Virus record (IMG/VR): IMGVR_UViG_3300042293_000422
Span: 1-24,054 of that record
Direction: 5' to 3' (one strand)
From: a virus
DNA length: 24,054 bases
Part shown: piece after piece, positions 9,861 to 18,145 of the stretch
Layout: every line of letters begins with the position of its first letter
Numbering within the stretch: the stretch's first letter is position 1
Position numbers and translations under genes: made by a program
The notes under the pieces: model-generated
What the model was told of the DNA's origin: nothing
Databases searched by the model: none
What the model saw: only the letters and a program-made list of their open reading frames with translations

Positions 9861-10746
9861 CTATTCGCTCCTTCTCGTATTGCTCAATCTGTCGATCAAG
9901 CTTGGCTAAGTATTTGTCGTTCACTTCTGACTTGCTTAGTTGTCCAGTTCCTCGCTCGGGGAGCGGGTCATCTTCCCAACGTCCCTGATTTAGCCACGTT
10001 GCGGGATGCGGCGTAAATTCTTCCTGCCGGTTTGGATCATCAGCGAAGGCCTGCGCTCCGGAGATGATCGATTCAGCATCAGCGATCAGGAGAGCTTTCT
10101 TCCAAGCAGCGTAGGAAGCGAGTTTTCCTACTCTGCGCGGATAGGTCTTCCAGAAGTGTTCGTAATCGTCTTCGTAACGTTTCCCAACTTCCTTGTTCCT
10201 AGTTCCTAGTTCCTTAGTCCTTTGTCCTTGTTCCTTGTTCCTTGTTCCTATTCCTTGTTCCTTTGTCCTTGTTCCGGGACTCTCGCGGGACTCCCCTAGA
10301 GACTCCCCTAGGGAGTCCCCCATAGTGTCCCCTAGGGACATTTCATCAATTCCCTCTATAGAGTCAACAGAATTAACAGATAAAGGCGCATCTAGGGAAG
10401 AACCATCATTCTTCTTCGCCGATGTTCTGTAACCTCGCTGCTTCTCTTTCTTTGATCTCCAGGCCTCTCTAGATTCGATTACTTGCGCCTTCGTTTGGTT
10501 GTGCGCGTCCCAATCATGGAAGATGAAACCGCCTTCTCTTACTTCCCAAAGCCCGGCATCTACTAGCGCTTGCGTAGTCTCCTGAGATCCACCAAGCCTC
10601 GCTATGAGCCTTGCAGGGATGAATCCATCAGTGAGCTGTTCGCCTGACCATGACCCGGCGAGCGTCCAAAGTCCTATGGCATCTAGCCCGAGATCTAGGA
10701 TCTTTGGATGCGAATGAAAGTGATCATCTACCTTGAAGTAGGTCAT
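9754..10746 (-). CDS. Replication initiator-like protein with origin repeats in its linker
   Basis: The 330-aa protein has an N-terminal winged-helix-like domain (MTYFKVDDHFHSHPKILDLG, AIGLWTLAGSW, LIARLGGSQETTQALVDAGL, GGFIFHDW) typical of phage replication-initiator/DnaD-like proteins. A low-complexity linker (~110-195) follows, with SLGESLGES and TKEQG-type repeats. A C-terminal helicase-interaction-like domain comes next (YEHFWKTYPRRVGKLASYAA, then FTPHPATWLNQGRWEDD, the usual end motif of this class). The linker DNA forms an origin-like repeat array. The start ATG lacks its own RBS and overlaps a 13-codon ORF as ATGA. The C-terminal 35 residues overlap the next gene. Organisation resembles lambda O, with ori inside the initiator gene. 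Confidence 0.75.
   Translation of the reverse strand: MTYFKVDDHFHSHPKILDLGLDAIGLWTLAGSWSGEQLTDGFIPARLIARLGGSQETTQALVDAGLWEVREGGFIFHDWDAHNQTKAQVIESREAWRSKKEKQRGYRTSAKKNDGSSLDAPLSVNSVDSIEGIDEMSLGDTMGDSLGESLGESRESPGTRTKEQGIGTRNKEQGQRTKELGTRNKEVGKRYEDDYEHFWKTYPRRVGKLASYAAWKKALLIADAESIISGAQAFADDPNRQEEFTPHPATWLNQGRWEDDPLPERGTGQLSKSEVNDKYLAKLDRQIEQYEKERIDAASRGETIASFDQWTRRANSGDFRPGDGMGRDAY
10193..10384. other. Putative replication origin inside the initiator gene
   Basis: From 10193 to 10275 there are 12 tandem units of about 7 nt, consensus TTGTTCC, one being 6 nt. They are followed by GGGACTC at 10276 and 10287, two tandem GACTCCCCTAG units (10289, 10301), and two palindromes: GACTCCC-CTA-GGGAGTC (10301-10317) and GTCCC-CTA-GGGAC (10327-10339). 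A markedly AT-rich stretch (10340-10384) with palindrome CTCTATAGAG (10354-10363) comes next. Iterons beside an AT-rich unwinding region within an initiator gene match the lambda ori layout. Function is inferred. Confidence 0.55.
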
Positions 10747-14936: not shown

Positions 14937-14965
14937 TTGACATCCTCACTCTGAGGACTCATAAT
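14937..14965 (+). promoter_or_regulatory. Promoter P1 for the small-gene operon
   Basis: TTGACA (14937-14942), a 17-nt spacer and CATAAT (14960-14965) make a near-consensus sigma70-type promoter. The flanks GTGTAAA upstream and TAATTAAGACA downstream recur at a second promoter at 16948. The first gene starts 40 nt beyond, with an AAAGGAG RBS. Confidence 0.78.
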
Positions 14966-15004: not shown

Positions 15005-15178
15005 ATGAACACTCAGGCCAAGATCCGCACCGCATACACCGCCAACCTGGCAACTGGCATGGATGCCAAGACCGCAGCGATCACCGTGGCCGCGGACATG
15101 GTGGTCGCAGCGATGGCAGCCGGTTGGGACCGCGACATCATCGCCAACATCCCCCGGACAGTCTTCGAGACTATCTAA
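15005..15178 (+). CDS. 57-aa protein of unknown function, first gene of the P1 operon
   Basis: The frame MNTQAKIRTAYTANLATGMD... begins 7 nt after an AAAGGAG motif and about 40 nt from promoter P1. It is an Ala/Thr-rich helical protein with a hydrophobic middle (AAITVAADMVVAAMAAGW), probably amphipathic rather than membrane-spanning because it is regularly interrupted by polar residues. It ends FETI at TAA 15176. A 46-nt tRNA-like element starts 10 nt after the stop. No domain recognised. Confidence 0.62.
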   Translation: MNTQAKIRTAYTANLATGMDAKTAAITVAADMVVAAMAAGWDRDIIANIPRTVFETI

Positions 15179-15188
15179 CCGCTCGACC

Positions 15189-15234
15189 CGCGCTGACGGT
15201 CCCCGTCAAGGTTCGACTCCTCGGAGCGCACGCA
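15189..15234 (+). repeat. tRNA-minihelix-like intercistronic element, copy 1
   Basis: The copy can form an outer stem GCGCT (15190-15194)/AGCGC (15225-15229), an 11-nt linker GACGGTCCCCG and an inner stem CAAGG/CCTCG (one A-C mismatch, one extra T-G wobble) closing the loop TTCGACT. It ends ACGCA. Same length and layout as copies 2-4; this is the least perfect stem. Confidence 0.7.
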
Positions 15235-15265
15235 AGGCAAACCAACTACACAGAGGAGACACACA

Positions 15266-15451
15266 ATGATTCAGAATCTCATCACAGAGCTTGTCTGCAT
15301 CGATTGCGGCGCAAACTTGATGGCAGATCTCGCCGAAGATGGCGCGCTGTTCGACACCGCGAAGGGCAACGGCGGGACCACAGCTTCAGGCCTTACCGGC
15401 TTCGACTGCCCCGCCCGAATGGATTTTGGGCCGCACATCATTAACGACTAG
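15266..15451 (+). CDS. 61-aa Cys-containing protein of unknown function
   Basis: The ATG follows GAGGAG by about 8 nt. The product has VCIDCGANLMADLAED at residues 10-25 and FDCPARMDFGPH near the end. The CxxC and a later Cys could bind metal or form a small treble-clef-like site, but the pattern is incomplete (three Cys, one His). It is flanked on both sides by tRNA-like elements. No family is recognised. Confidence 0.6.
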   Translation: MIQNLITELVCIDCGANLMADLAEDGALFDTAKGNGGTTASGLTGFDCPARMDFGPHIIND

Positions 15452-15458
15452 AAAGGCT

Positions 15459-15504
15459 CGCGCTGACGGTCTTCGCGCAGGTTCGACTCCTGCGAGCGCA
15501 CGCA
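15459..15504 (+). repeat. tRNA-minihelix-like intercistronic element, copy 2
   Basis: The outer stem is GCGCT (15460-15464)/AGCGC (15495-15499), the linker GACGGTCTTCG, and the inner stem a perfect 6-bp CGCAGG/CCTGCG closing TTCGACT. It starts 7 nt after the upstream stop and is followed by the RBS of the next gene. The inner and outer 3' strands are contiguous, as in a tRNA acceptor/T-arm stack. Confidence 0.78.
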
Positions 15505-15531
15505 AGGTAAACCAACAGAGAGGATCACGCA

Positions 15532-15840
15532 ATGAACGTTCTGATCTACATGAACGAAAGAGACTTTGAGCGGCTCACCGAAACCTCCATGCCCTGGGCA
15601 GATTATGCCGATTGGGCCAAGAAGCGCGACCGCTTCGAGACCGAAGCCGGTGAAGATCTTTCCTTTGAATGGAAAAACGCTTATTGGGTCGGATGCTCCG
15701 GGACCGCCGTCATCCTCGCAAAGTCCTACCTGGCAACGATGGGCCACGACTATCAGATCCTTTGGGATCTCGCCTCGCACGACAATGGCGAATCTTTCGG
15801 ATGGGTAGTCCTAACAAATTACGAAACCGGTATCAGATAG
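15532..15840 (+). CDS. 102-aa protein of unknown function
   Basis: The ATG lies 6-7 nt after AGAGGA. The product (MNVLIYMNERDFERLTETSM...) is soluble and mixed alpha/beta with several aromatics: PWADYADWAKKRDRF, then EWKNAYWVGCSGTAVILAKS and a final strand SFGWVVLTNYET. The pattern suggests a compact globular protein. It shows no recognised motif. Elements 2 and 3 flank it. It is the largest of the promoter-P1 genes. Confidence 0.68.
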   Translation: MNVLIYMNERDFERLTETSMPWADYADWAKKRDRFETEAGEDLSFEWKNAYWVGCSGTAVILAKSYLATMGHDYQILWDLASHDNGESFGWVVLTNYETGIR

Positions 15841-15847
15841 GAACGCT

Positions 15848-15893
15848 CGCGCTGATGGTCTTTGTCAGGGTTCGACTCCCTGAAGCGCACGCA
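15848..15893 (+). repeat. tRNA-minihelix-like intercistronic element, copy 3
   Basis: The outer stem is GCGCT (15849-15853)/AGCGC (15884-15888), the linker GATGGTCTTTG, and the inner stem a perfect 6-bp TCAGGG/CCCTGA closing TTCGACT. Relative to copy 2, several inner-stem pairs are changed on both strands, so base pairing is kept while sequence differs. Confidence 0.78.
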
Positions 15894-15919
15894 ACATCCC
15901 AACCAAAAAGGAGAATGCA

Positions 15920-16081
15920 ATGAGCAAGAAGCAGAGCAAGAAGGTCATCTTCACGCTGACGATGCCTAAGACGGAGGTCCCGTTCGCGCAGTTGAGCACC
16001 TCGCTGAAGCGATTTGGCAAGCTGCGCGCAGACTTTGAGAGCCTCTCGCTTCGCGTGGAAGTGATCGACTTCAAGAAGTAG
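15920..16081 (+). CDS. 53-aa basic protein of unknown function, last gene of the P1 operon
   Basis: The ATG follows AAAGGAG by 7 nt. The product MSKKQSKKVIFTLTMPKTEV... is lysine-rich at both ends with two short strands and a helix (FAQLSTSLKRFGKLRADFES, then SLRVEVIDF). The strand-helix-strand look and high charge suggest nucleic-acid binding, but this is weak. The stop lies 5 nt before a strong terminator. Confidence 0.62.
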   Translation: MSKKQSKKVIFTLTMPKTEVPFAQLSTSLKRFGKLRADFESLSLRVEVIDFKK

Positions 16082-16085
16082 AAGG

Positions 16086-16117
16086 AAAGCCCCGGCTAGA
16101 AATTAGCCGGGGCTTTT
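16086..16117. terminator. Bidirectional intrinsic terminator
   Basis: A 13-bp perfect stem, AAAGCCCCGGCTA (16086-16098) with its complement (16104-16116), has a 5-nt loop. T-runs lie on both sides, TTTT on the plus strand and TTTCC on the minus. It ends the P1 operon and also lies over the 3' end of the convergent WhiB gene. Confidence 0.88.
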
Positions 16118-16347
16118 CTGCGTCTTCGATCAAGGGTAGTGAAATCAATCCCGCCCCAGATCCCGTAATGCTCGCGCCGATCTATGGCACTTTGATAGCA
16201 AGGCCTGCGAACCTCGCAGCGCTTGCATATTGACACGGCTACACAGTATTCAAAGGATGCAGGATCTGCCGTGAACCAAATTTCAGGGTCAGTACCTACG
16301 CAGGCGGCTTGCTCTATCCAAAGATCTTTTAACTTAGCCATTGCCAC
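16096..16347 (-). CDS. WhiB-like Fe-S transcription factor
   Basis: The 83-aa protein has the four-cysteine Fe-S pattern of WhiB/Wbl proteins: Cys16 in EQAACVGTDPEIWF, Cys41-x2-Cys44 in ICKRC and Cys50, with the family's GIWGG turn at 62-66 and a basic tail LDRRRRKAP. Cys35 is extra. Wbl proteins are an actinobacterial family and phage copies are known to interfere with host gene regulation or superinfection. The start is GTG 16347 or ATG 16341; neither has a clear RBS. It is the only minus-strand gene in this accessory block, and its 3' codons lie inside the terminator hairpin. Confidence 0.88.
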   Translation of the reverse strand: MAMAKLKDLWIEQAACVGTDPEIWFTADPASFEYCVAVSICKRCEVRRPCYQSAIDRREHYGIWGGIDFTTLDRRRRKAPANF

Positions 16348-16370
16348 GCGCCGCGAGCGTCAGCAGAACC

Positions 16371-16465
16371 GCGCAAGCGATTAATTCAATGAGCATGAAC
16401 CATTGCACAACATCATGCTAGGGTCTTTTTCAGTTGACCCGGTGCGATTCCGGCTCTTGCGCCCA
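16371..16465 (+). ncRNA. tRNA-like structure, not a canonical tRNA
   Basis: GCGCAAG (16371-16377) pairs perfectly with CTTGCGC (16456-16462), followed by CCA. A T-arm-like hairpin precedes it: CCGG-TGCGATT-CCGG (16439-16453), where the usual TTC is TGC. The insert of about 59 nt includes TTC/GAA and GGGTC/GACCC pairs but no acceptable D arm or 5-bp anticodon arm. It could be a degenerate tRNA, an attachment-site remnant or a structured leader for the lysozyme gene. Confidence 0.4.
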
Positions 16466-16503
16466 TTGTGCGCCGTCCCTATCCCCGAGTGATCGGACAT
16501 CTA

Positions 16504-16932
16504 ATGATAGAAAATCTTGTATTCGCAGCAGCAATGATGATTTCTAGAGAAGCACCCGCAAGCCTCCCCGCCAGAGCAATCAGCCAGGCGGCAGAGATCC
16601 CCGTTCGGTGGCGTCCGTTCGCTGAATGCGTGGCGAATCGTGAAAGCCACGGGAACCCGAGAGCGCAGAATCCAATATCTAGCGCGCAAGGTAAATGGCA
16701 GTTCCTCGATAACCATTGGAGGCACGGCGCAGGCTGGAACGTCTACGCACGTCTGAGGGATGCAGGGATGCCCCGTAGCGAGGCGAGAGCGATCCTTAGG
16801 CAGCTTCACTCGAAGCCCATTAAGCGATGGGCAGAGGCCTATCAGGATGCCGCATTCGTCTTCGTGATCCTCATTCCTCGCGGCTGGCGGCATTGGAGCG
16901 GCGGTCACGGCTGCAATAACTTAGTTCCCTGA
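16504..16932 (+). CDS. Lysozyme/transglycosylase-like protein
   Basis: The 142-aa product has a c-type/SLT-like pattern: FAECVANRESHGNPRAQNPI with a candidate catalytic Glu47, SSAQGKWQFLDNHWR (62-73 region), GAGWNVYARLRDAGMP and a C-terminal WSGGHGCNN. It resembles the Rpf/transglycosylase-like fold that cleaves peptidoglycan glycan strands. The first ~25 residues include a hydrophobic run (LVFAAAMMIS) that is too short for a clear signal peptide. The start at ATG 16504 has only a weak GGA; GTG 16468 is an alternative. It is separate from the lysis cassette at 18192-19214, so it may be a virion or early muralytic enzyme. Confidence 0.7.
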   Translation: MIENLVFAAAMMISREAPASLPARAISQAAEIPVRWRPFAECVANRESHGNPRAQNPISSAQGKWQFLDNHWRHGAGWNVYARLRDAGMPRSEARAILRQLHSKPIKRWAEAYQDAAFVFVILIPRGWRHWSGGHGCNNLVP

Positions 16933-16947
16933 TTCTGTGTAAAGCGC

Positions 16948-16977
16948 TTGACATCCTCAGACTAGGGATGCTTTAAT
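16948..16977 (+). promoter_or_regulatory. Promoter P2, near copy of P1
   Basis: TTGACA (16948-16953), an 18-nt spacer and TTTAAT (16972-16977). GTGTAAA upstream, the first spacer bases TCCTCA and TAATTAAGACA downstream are all shared with P1 at 14937. The gene at 17013 follows 35 nt later. Confidence 0.75.
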
Positions 16978-17012
16978 TAAGACACAGAGCAAGCCACTAG
17001 GGAGGAACCAAA

Positions 17013-17249
17013 ATGAACACCACCGCCGCAATCGTCATCCTTGACCAAGACAAGACAGCCAAGACAGCCGGAATCGTTTACGTTGACGTTTGCGAAATCG
17101 GAGGCCGCAAGTTGATTGAGCAGATCATTGTTAAGGATGGTGCTGATGTCGTCAAGCTCGCAGATAAGGCTCTGAACGCTAAGGGCTACTTCCGCTTCAG
17201 CGGTTACTCAATGGTTCAGGGAGAGATGACAGCCGCAATCAAGTTCTAG
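17013..17249 (+). CDS. 78-aa protein of unknown function, first gene of the P2 operon
   Basis: The ATG follows GGGAGGA by about 6 nt. The product (MNTTAAIVILDQDKTAKTAG...) alternates beta strands and a helix: IVYVDVCEIGGRKLIEQIIV, DVVKLADKALNAKGYFRFSG. This looks like a small alpha/beta fold. It starts with the same MNT as the first gene after P1, but the rest is unrelated by eye. No known domain. Confidence 0.65.
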   Translation: MNTTAAIVILDQDKTAKTAGIVYVDVCEIGGRKLIEQIIVKDGADVVKLADKALNAKGYFRFSGYSMVQGEMTAAIKF

Positions 17250-17254
17250 TAATA

Positions 17255-17300
17255 CGCGCTGACGGTCTTCGCTGAGGTTCGATTCCTCAGAGCGCACGCA
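17255..17300 (+). repeat. tRNA-minihelix-like intercistronic element, copy 4
   Basis: The outer stem is GCGCT (17256-17260)/AGCGC (17291-17295), the linker GACGGTCTTCG, and the inner stem a perfect 6-bp CTGAGG/CCTCAG closing TTCGATT. It starts 5 nt after the upstream stop. The inner stem again differs from copies 2 and 3 by compensatory changes, and the loop varies only at C/T. Confidence 0.78.
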
Positions 17301-17325: not shown

Positions 17326-17475
17326 ATGACACTAGAACAGTTCAAGCAGATTGTTATCGTAATGAATGATGCTCGCATTGATGGACGCATGACGCGCGAA
17401 CTTCACGCTATTGAGATGCGCCGCATTGATTCAGCACTAACCGCCGCTGGCTTCTCATGGTGGGATCTCGCATGA
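17326..17475 (+). CDS. 49-aa protein of unknown function
   Basis: The ATG has GGGAGGA 6-7 nt upstream. The product MTLEQFKQIVIVMNDARIDG... is amphipathic helical, with RMTRELHAIEMRRIDSALTA and a hydrophobic, Trp-rich tail GFSWWDLA. It overlaps the Prim-Pol start as ATGA, so the two are translationally coupled. A helper of the primase-like protein is possible, but this rests only on position. Confidence 0.6.
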   Translation: MTLEQFKQIVIVMNDARIDGRMTRELHAIEMRRIDSALTAAGFSWWDLA

Positions 17476-17933
17476 ACGCTCACGATTACGCAGAGCGCGG
17501 ATGGCTTGTCTTCCCGCTCGCTCCACACTCAAAGCAGCCGAACCCGCGTTACGCGCCGAGCGGTTACAAGAGTGCGACGACAGATCACAACATCATTGAT
17601 TCTTGGCCTGATGGTGGGAACATCGGCATAGCCTGCGCTCCATCTGGACTCATCATCATTGACGTTGACCATAGGAACGGGCCAGATCTCGCGCTAGTGA
17701 ATTCGCTTCCAGCGACGCACGCAGTAGGAACCGCTGACGGATTCCACCTCTACTACCGCACCGAGCAACTAGGCCCCGTGCGCGGGAAGCTCGGCGATGG
17801 AATCGACATCAAATATAACGGCTACGTCGTCGCTCCCCCGAGCATTCATCCTGACGGGATCGCCTATCACGAGATCGACGGCATGGAACCAATCGCGCTA
17901 CCTGCCAGCCTCGCGAGTTTGGTGCTGAAGTGA
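17472..17933 (+). CDS. Stand-alone Prim-Pol domain protein (bifunctional primase/polymerase-like)
   Basis: The 153-aa protein matches the N-terminal Prim-Pol domain: MNAHDYAERGWLVFPLAPHS, GNIGIACAPSGLIIIDVDHR with the metal-binding DVD, GTADGFHLYYR, and GDGIDIKYNGYVVAPPSIHP, the typical late block of the family. It contains only this domain; family members usually continue with a helicase domain. It may synthesise primers or do translesion/terminal synthesis for phage replication. It is coupled to both neighbours (ATGA upstream, GTGA downstream). Confidence 0.85.
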   Translation: MNAHDYAERGWLVFPLAPHSKQPNPRYAPSGYKSATTDHNIIDSWPDGGNIGIACAPSGLIIIDVDHRNGPDLALVNSLPATHAVGTADGFHLYYRTEQLGPVRGKLGDGIDIKYNGYVVAPPSIHPDGIAYHEIDGMEPIALPASLASLVLK

Positions 17934-18145
17934 GCAGCCTAGAAGCAGCAGCGAGCAGGCATCAGGCAGCACTAGCCGAGCAGCGAGCGGCTTTCTCAGA
18001 TCTCATCGAAGAATGCGTCCAAGCGCATAATGCAGGAATCAACATCAAGCAGCTTTCCTATATCGCCGGGATTAGCCGCATGACGCTTCACAAGTACATC
18101 GCAGCGGCTATCTCAGCGAATCTGAGAGCCTCTGACAACGATTAG
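17930..18145 (+). CDS. HTH protein, last gene of the P2 operon
   Basis: The 71-aa protein starts at GTG 17930, overlapping the Prim-Pol stop as GTGA. The N-terminal half is a helix rich in Ala/Gln/Arg (LEAAASRHQAALAEQRAAFS). The second half has a classical HTH: NIKQLSYIAGISRMTLHKYI. It is likely a small DNA-binding regulator or replication accessory. A strong terminator follows 10 nt after the stop. Confidence 0.7.
   Translation: MSSLEAAASRHQAALAEQRAAFSDLIEECVQAHNAGINIKQLSYIAGISRMTLHKYIAAAISANLRASDND

Follow-up and report, generated by a model that had tools for sequence, protein, structure and literature searches.

A tRNA-like element between the genes of actinophage operons and its possible role as a pre-tRNA mimic

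In the IMG/VR virus record IMGVR_UViG_3300042293_000422, whose positions 1 to 24,054 are analyzed here as one 24,054-nt window, four copies of a 46-nt sequence stand between the genes of two operons (15189-15234, 15459-15504, 15848-15893, and 17255-17300, all on the plus strand), and the question raised by this locus is what such intercistronic copies are and what they might do. Each consists of CGCGCT, the linker GAYGGTCYYYG, one strand of a 6-nt stem, the loop TTCGAYT, the other strand of the stem, AGCGC, and ACGCA, exactly as laid out in an earlier note made from the sequence alone, which took the copies for mimics of a tRNA acceptor/T-arm stack. Here we report that they belong to a tRNA-like RNA element found in many actinophages, and we propose, with a rough probability of 0.55, that it acts as a pre-tRNA mimic at which RNase P and RNase Z would cut polycistronic phage mRNA. 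The elements in the window and their flank are the following:

15190..15229, plus strand: tRNA-like element 1, GCGCT-GACGGTCCCCG-TCAAGG-TTCGACT-CCTCGG-AGCGC, 59.7 bits with the covariance model
15230..15234, plus strand: 3' flank of element 1, ACGCA, read as A73-C74-G (N73-C74-notC), with an identical flank at 15500, 15889, and 17296
15460..15499, plus strand: tRNA-like element 2, GCGCT-GACGGTCTTCG-CGCAGG-TTCGACT-CCTGCG-AGCGC, 66.2 bits
15849..15888, plus strand: tRNA-like element 3, GCGCT-GATGGTCTTTG-TCAGGG-TTCGACT-CCCTGA-AGCGC, 64.3 bits
17256..17295, plus strand: tRNA-like element 4, GCGCT-GACGGTCTTCG-CTGAGG-TTCGATT-CCTCAG-AGCGC, 64.7 bits

The T-stems of copies 2-4 are perfect 6-bp helices that differ by two-sided changes, and copy 1 keeps five of six pairs, with one G-U and one A.C; the compensatory changes and the imperfect first copy had both been pointed out before. 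The copies begin 10, 7, 7, and 5 nt, respectively, past the upstream stop codon and are found at every one of the four non-overlapping junctions in the two plus-strand operons, and the element is missing from the ATGA/GTGA overlaps of these operons, from the sites 5' of each first gene, and from those 3' of the last genes, so that the claimed regularity of placement is borne out. Further matches to the 46-nt pattern were absent from the window at 3 mismatches.

Does the RNA really fold in this way? Single-sequence folding energies of the copies are ordinary (z of 0.1 to -1.0), and copy 1 has a competing fold with lower energy; folding z-scores were discarded as uninformative, and the case for structure is one of covariation and elbow motif, not of stability. 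A first pattern scan, with the acceptor and loop fixed and the T-stem left free, gave matches in 20 viral contigs, where the outer T-stem pairs were formed in 85/88 cases despite differing sequences. Two further scans were unbiased, fixing neither stem, and in these the outer T-stem pairs were formed in 104/104 (26 hits) and 145/156 (39 hits) cases and the acceptor pairs in 121/130 and 180/195. In an alignment of 41 sequences, two-sided changes occur at 9 of the 11 pairs, and the covariation score is 0.62, compared with 0.14 after shuffling and at most 0.12 after sliding; the members of this alignment were picked by pairing, which inflates its percentage of paired cells, and the pair counts of the pattern scans are the fair test. 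Among 113 distinct matches of the covariance model, all 11 pairs covary with two-sided changes, and the score rises to 0.94 (shuffled, 0.18; slid, at most 0.15). A structure descriptor yielded 62 hits in 24 related loci and none in the Markov and reversed controls, nor did it hit anything in 5.2 Mb of Markov sequence. Thus, covariation of both helices extends over numerous elements from many phages.

The anatomy of the element is that of half a tRNA. In 171 distinct elements, which contain 76 acceptor strands, the stacked helix measures 11 bp in 126, 12 bp in 37, and 13 bp in 7, and this length holds whatever the split between the two arms (5+6, 6+6, 6+5, 7+5, 8+4, or 7+4). The linker, mostly 11 nt long, resembles a tRNA D-loop and has GG in an AYGGY context (e.g., AACGGTT, AATGGCA, ACTGGCA, and GACGGTC), and the loop of the 171 elements is TTCGANT closed by G-C. 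Unpaired yet invariant in 41/41 aligned sequences are T54, T55, C56, A58, T60, and a GG at a fixed place; the presence of GG was a selection criterion for this alignment, its fixed position was not. T-arm and elbow therefore agree with those of canonical tRNAs in the TTCRANY loop, the G-C closure, and the D-loop GG. With the covariance model, genuine tRNAs of phage Rey reach no more than 18.7 bits, and almost all elements score 20 to 69. Canonical tRNA was rejected as an identity, as ARAGORN calls no element in the phage loci scanned and no match to RF00005 passes threshold, and so was membership in any Rfam 15 family, since no element exceeds a gathering threshold; in the window, neither ARAGORN nor Rfam, the latter at curated thresholds, gives a hit.

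Elbow and T-arm are also what EF-Tu, T-loop modification enzymes, and similar factors read, so that the element might instead be the site of another tRNA-reading factor, possibly a phage protein, or a decoy occupying host tRNA enzymes in infection. Many copies per genome would suit this role, but a decoy has no need for sense-strand sites at gene junctions at a fixed distance from the stop codon, and we regard the explanation as highly improbable.

The 3' flank resembles that of tRNA precursors. Of the two processing enzymes, RNase P docks on the elbow and gauges the acceptor/T stack; RNase Z holds the elbow in a clamp, and CCA acts on it as an antideterminant (PMC4919913). Bacterial RNase P prefers G1-C72 over U1-A72 and favors U at N-1 (PMC12630138). 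The elements have a G1-C72 pair in 128/171, A at position 73 in 161/198, and C at position 74 in 180/198, and C75 is avoided, being present in only 7/180 elements with C74 against a background of 28% (p=2e-17). In two actinobacterial genomes, genuine tRNA genes have C74 in 51/51 cases, with or without encoded CCA, and phage tRNAs have C75 in 5/27, many genuine actinophage tRNAs being without encoded CCA. Because C74 is kept, as in the genuine tRNAs, and C75 mostly missing, as in those of phages, the flank (R73-C74-notC) is, judged from its sequence, that of a CCA-less pre-tRNA. With a stack of 11-12 bp in 163/171 elements, close to the roughly 12 bp of pre-tRNAs, together with G1-C72 and R73-C74, the element has the features of the pre-tRNA type, and it lacks the encoded CCA and U-1 favored by bacterial RNase P, N-1 being mainly A. 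A second hairpin of 6-10 bp, beginning mostly 2-5 nt 3' of the acceptor, accompanies 87/166 elements outside the clade of the window, compared with 8 expected from shuffles, and precedes the ribosome-binding site in most lineages.

Could RNase Z act alone? Its 3' cut would leave the element as a cap, possibly CCA-tailed, at the 3' end of the upstream mRNA, and the downstream mRNA would start at C74 with the hairpin. The avoidance of C75, the closeness of the second hairpin, the A rather than U at -1, and a locus in which the stop codon lies inside the acceptor (L024, described below) would all agree with a single cut; however, G1-C72, the GG/T-loop, and C74 are equally features of RNase P substrates, and the clade of the window is without the second hairpin. 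We consider this alternative quite unlikely.

Placement relative to genes is as regular elsewhere as in the window. Among 71 elements with an upstream gene, 54 start 4-16 nt past its stop codon, the distances peaking sharply at 7-9 nt, and the next start codon lies mostly 31-52 nt downstream of the element. Same-strand gaps of 70-130 nt contain an element in 59/85 cases and gaps shorter than 30 nt in 0/138, and the strand of the element follows that of the operon, i.e., the coding strand. The earlier note had named a lack of covariation and random placement as findings that would undo its interpretation; both were looked at and neither held. An intrinsic terminator was rejected as an identity, since no T run follows the elements and the operons end in ordinary terminator hairpins.

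Such phasing might be expected of an uncleaved intercistronic insulator, an element past the stop codon that keeps terminating ribosomes from sliding or re-initiating and thereby keeps the translation of genes separate. Both the sharp distance to the stop codon and the distance to the next start fit this explanation, as does the absence of the element where genes overlap and coupling is wanted. Any stable hairpin would serve this purpose, though, leaving the invariant elbow bases, the 11-12 bp rule, C74, and the avoidance of C75 unexplained, and we think the insulator unlikely.

Several individual placements deserve description. Annotated genes contain two elements. The annotated start of Predator gp49 (L110:9169) lies over an element and is probably wrong, because the counterpart element in Konstantine is intergenic. 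Annotated starts also cover elements in Cuke gp44 (L109:12662) and in Send513 gp56 and gp79 (L026:10633 and 29297), and these starts, like that of Predator gp49, are probably annotated too far upstream. A phage of unknown host with no evident Shine-Dalgarno sites (L024:172-2737) has four elements, two of which overlap a stop codon, so that the element family may extend beyond actinophages. Compared with window positions 15440-15530, two related loci (L011:527-790 and L005) contain an extra gene-plus-element unit, exactly 199 bp long, whose flanks are otherwise collinear with the window. The two elements on its borders are the same or almost the same, as would be seen if the elements were sites at which cassettes recombine.

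This exact extra unit and the identical copies within one genome (Send513) would be expected if the elements were boundaries at the DNA level for swapping small gene cassettes, comparable to integron attC sites or boundary sequences. Against this, the two-sided compensation with G-U pairs, the RNA-type invariant loop bases, and the strand-specific, stop-phased placement point to RNA, and an identity with attC was rejected, since inspection of the element sequences revealed no GTTRRRY core sites; we hold this to be the least probable of the explanations considered. Recombination between copies by homology could be a by-product.

How widespread is the element? It was searched for with the covariance model, the structure descriptor, the unbiased pattern scans, and BLAST of INPHARED. 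The region of the window as a whole has no DNA similarity in INPHARED, and the distant phages were therefore reached via the element itself. One 44-nt BLAST query matched 785 places in 160 records, mainly from phages of Streptomyces (113), Mycobacterium (26), and Gordonia (6), plus a few tRNA genes in other phages, and a second query added Microbacterium phages; aquatic contigs also carry the element. Together, the searches, among them that with the covariance model suggested in the earlier note, recovered the same element in many unrelated actinophages, including the Streptomyces phages Endor2, phiCAM, Caliburn, and Sujidade (Arquatrovirinae) and the Mycobacterium phages Send513, Papyrus, Cuke, Predator, and Konstantine. 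Annotated phages contain 12 (Send513 and Cuke), 9 (Caliburn), 8 (Predator, where the two that lie last along the sequence are doubtful), 7 (Konstantine, Endor2, and Sujidade), 6 (Aleemily), or 1 (Hubbs) elements, almost always unannotated in the phage records. Host chromosomes were rejected as the main home, with one copy each in 2/247 genomes of the bacterial class under strict filters.

In Endor2, an annotated tRNA-Arg (L111:44378-44460) coincides with an element and overlaps a gene end, and is probably a false tRNA call; in Sitrop, a tRNA-Arg is annotated in a similar region. Near-identical single elements with arms of 7+5 bp (or 6+5) occur just 5' of an ATG in three AT-richer contigs (L036:2952-2993, L038:5292-5333, and L047:1285-1324); these, together with L099 and other AT-rich single matches, may be a related class in other phyla or a chance set. 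Send513 also contains a full-length GOLLD RNA (RF02032, 180 bits) in the large space separating gp68 from gp69 (L026:19206-19666).

Among known systems, plant-mitochondrial t-elements come closest in proposed function; these tRNA-like structures are found where mRNAs end, and RNase P and RNase Z define the transcript ends there (PMC11658184). The phage elements are likewise tRNA-like and located at gene ends; however, t-elements are homologous to tRNA genes, whereas the phage elements have no D-stem or anticodon arm, give no tRNA hit, measure about 40-42 nt, and occur in up to about 12 copies per genome in DNA phages of bacteria. On this analysis, the phage element is t-element-like in its proposed function and not a member of that group, with no detectable derivation from tRNA. 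In the tRNA punctuation model of animal mitochondria, real tRNAs lie between the genes of polycistronic RNA; tRNA folds stand between genes in both systems, but the phage element cannot act as a tRNA. The truncated tRNA-like fold of mascRNA/MEN-beta RNA (RF01684, mascRNA-menRNA) is found at the 3' ends of animal nuclear long noncoding RNAs, and element 3 matches it weakly at 19.6 bits, below the cutoff of 42.5, which implies no homology. RNase P also cuts other RNAs of phages or operons, such as P1/P7 C4 RNA, M3 RNA, and polycistronic operon mRNAs (PMC11143913), but these are not known as a repeated, dedicated tRNA-like junction module. In cluster K mycobacteriophages, ESAS are repeated intercistronic inverted repeats 5' of right-arm genes (PMC3203893); unlike the phage elements, they consist of a 17-bp inverted repeat associated with a 13-bp start motif, and an identity with SAS/ESAS was rejected, since the right arm of TM4, where these were defined, has no element. 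Other intergenic repeats described in actinophages (PMC3203893, PMC7302621) are different, and none is tRNA-like. No description of the element was found in Rfam or in the literature, where open-licence papers were covered and an earlier account elsewhere is possible; this agrees with the remark in the earlier note that no equivalent was known to it.

From the fold and the placement, both of which the sequence comparisons establish, we infer cleavage as follows. The acceptor-like helix of 5-8 bp and the T-arm of 4-6 bp, helices shown by their covariation, stack into an 11-12 bp arm within the mRNA, and the T-loop, as its invariant bases suggest, would dock on the GG of the D-loop-like linker to form a tRNA elbow. 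Given the features that they read, host pre-tRNA enzymes could take the element for a CCA-less pre-tRNA, with RNase P cutting at its 5' side, just past the stop codon, and RNase Z cutting after position 73. The upstream cistron would thereby acquire a defined 3' end and the downstream cistron a fresh 5' end, which in most lineages would lie 1-4 nt before the second hairpin, a putative stabilizer of the 5' end. With a spacing of 7-9 nt, the element would sit at the front edge of a ribosome that pauses on the stop codon and might stay folded during translation. There is precedent in the phage RNAs and polycistronic mRNAs that are known to be cut by RNase P (PMC11143913).

Several observations weigh against cleavage by both enzymes. 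N-1 is mostly A (135/198) rather than the U favored by RNase P, a skew that arises in part from the descriptor, which counted a U-1:A73 pair as acceptor. A stack of 11 bp is more frequent than the canonical 12, and the full RCCA, which pairs with bacterial RNase P RNA, is absent from the elements. In L024, where the acceptor overlaps the stop codon, an RNase P cut would remove the stop, and the second hairpin is missing in the very clade of the window. In addition, no element was found in the parts searched of TM4, phiC31, SweetiePie, Rey, and phiPsal1, so that many phages of the same hosts do without it. On balance, the tRNA mimicry claimed in the earlier note is supported by the covariation of all helices, the invariant D-loop-like GG, and the CCA-less pre-tRNA flank, as are its compensatory pairs and junction placement, and RNase P/RNase Z processing remains the best interpretation of them.

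The two operons of the window in which the copies stand comprise the following features:

14937..14965, plus strand: promoter-like TTGACA-17-CATAAT 5' of operon 1, a consensus match only
15005..15178, plus strand: operon 1 gene a, 57 aa, no PHROG
15266..15451, plus strand: operon 1 gene b, 61 aa, no PHROG
15532..15840, plus strand: operon 1 gene c, 102 aa, no PHROG
15920..16081, plus strand: operon 1 gene d, 53 aa, no PHROG, with an ordinary terminator hairpin directly 3' and no element
16086..16122, plus strand: intrinsic-terminator-type hairpin with a T tail, closing operon 1
17013..17249, plus strand: operon 2 gene a, 78 aa, no PHROG
17326..17475, plus strand: operon 2 gene b, 49 aa, ATGA overlap with the next gene and no element there
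17472..17933, plus strand: operon 2 gene c, DNA primase/polymerase N-terminal type (PHROG 1156; the query began at the in-frame start 17457), GTGA overlap with the next gene
17930..18145, plus strand: operon 2 gene d, 71 aa, with a terminator-type hairpin 3'

Since the terminase of this phage is most similar to the one from Pontimonas phage phiPsal1 (51% identity), followed by those of phiC31-type phages, its host is probably an aquatic actinobacterium. Elsewhere in the window, tandem TCCTTGTTCC-type repeats are followed by 12-bp GGGACTCCCCTA-type repeats (10190-10334), and a 658-aa protein encoded on the minus strand (696-2672) matches polynucleotide-kinase families over residues 307-447 in addition to the head maturation protease (PHROG 80), an unusual combination.

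The observation reaches far beyond the window, to many viruses of actinobacteria and to gene after gene within them, and the element lies unannotated in well-studied phages. The broader proposal, to which we give roughly even odds, is that it constitutes a new class of structured RNA that is widespread among actinophages: tRNA mimics of 40-42 nt that lack both D-stem and anticodon arm and serve to punctuate polycistronic mRNAs for host pre-tRNA enzymes. In many lineages they would be accompanied by a 5'-protecting hairpin, and they would be an independently evolved counterpart, in bacterial viruses, of mitochondrial tRNA punctuation. With the element recognized, wrongly placed gene starts and spurious tRNA calls of actinophage genomes would be corrected, and what it does can be tested directly in Mycobacterium smegmatis and Streptomyces coelicolor. 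If the proposal is true, the element is a compact natural substrate of RNase P and RNase Z, and it explains how the long right-arm operons of tiny genes are split into separate messages. These phages would then use the same trick as mitochondria, cutting a long message into single-gene messages, and theirs would be, to our knowledge, the first dedicated tRNA-punctuation system known outside mitochondria.

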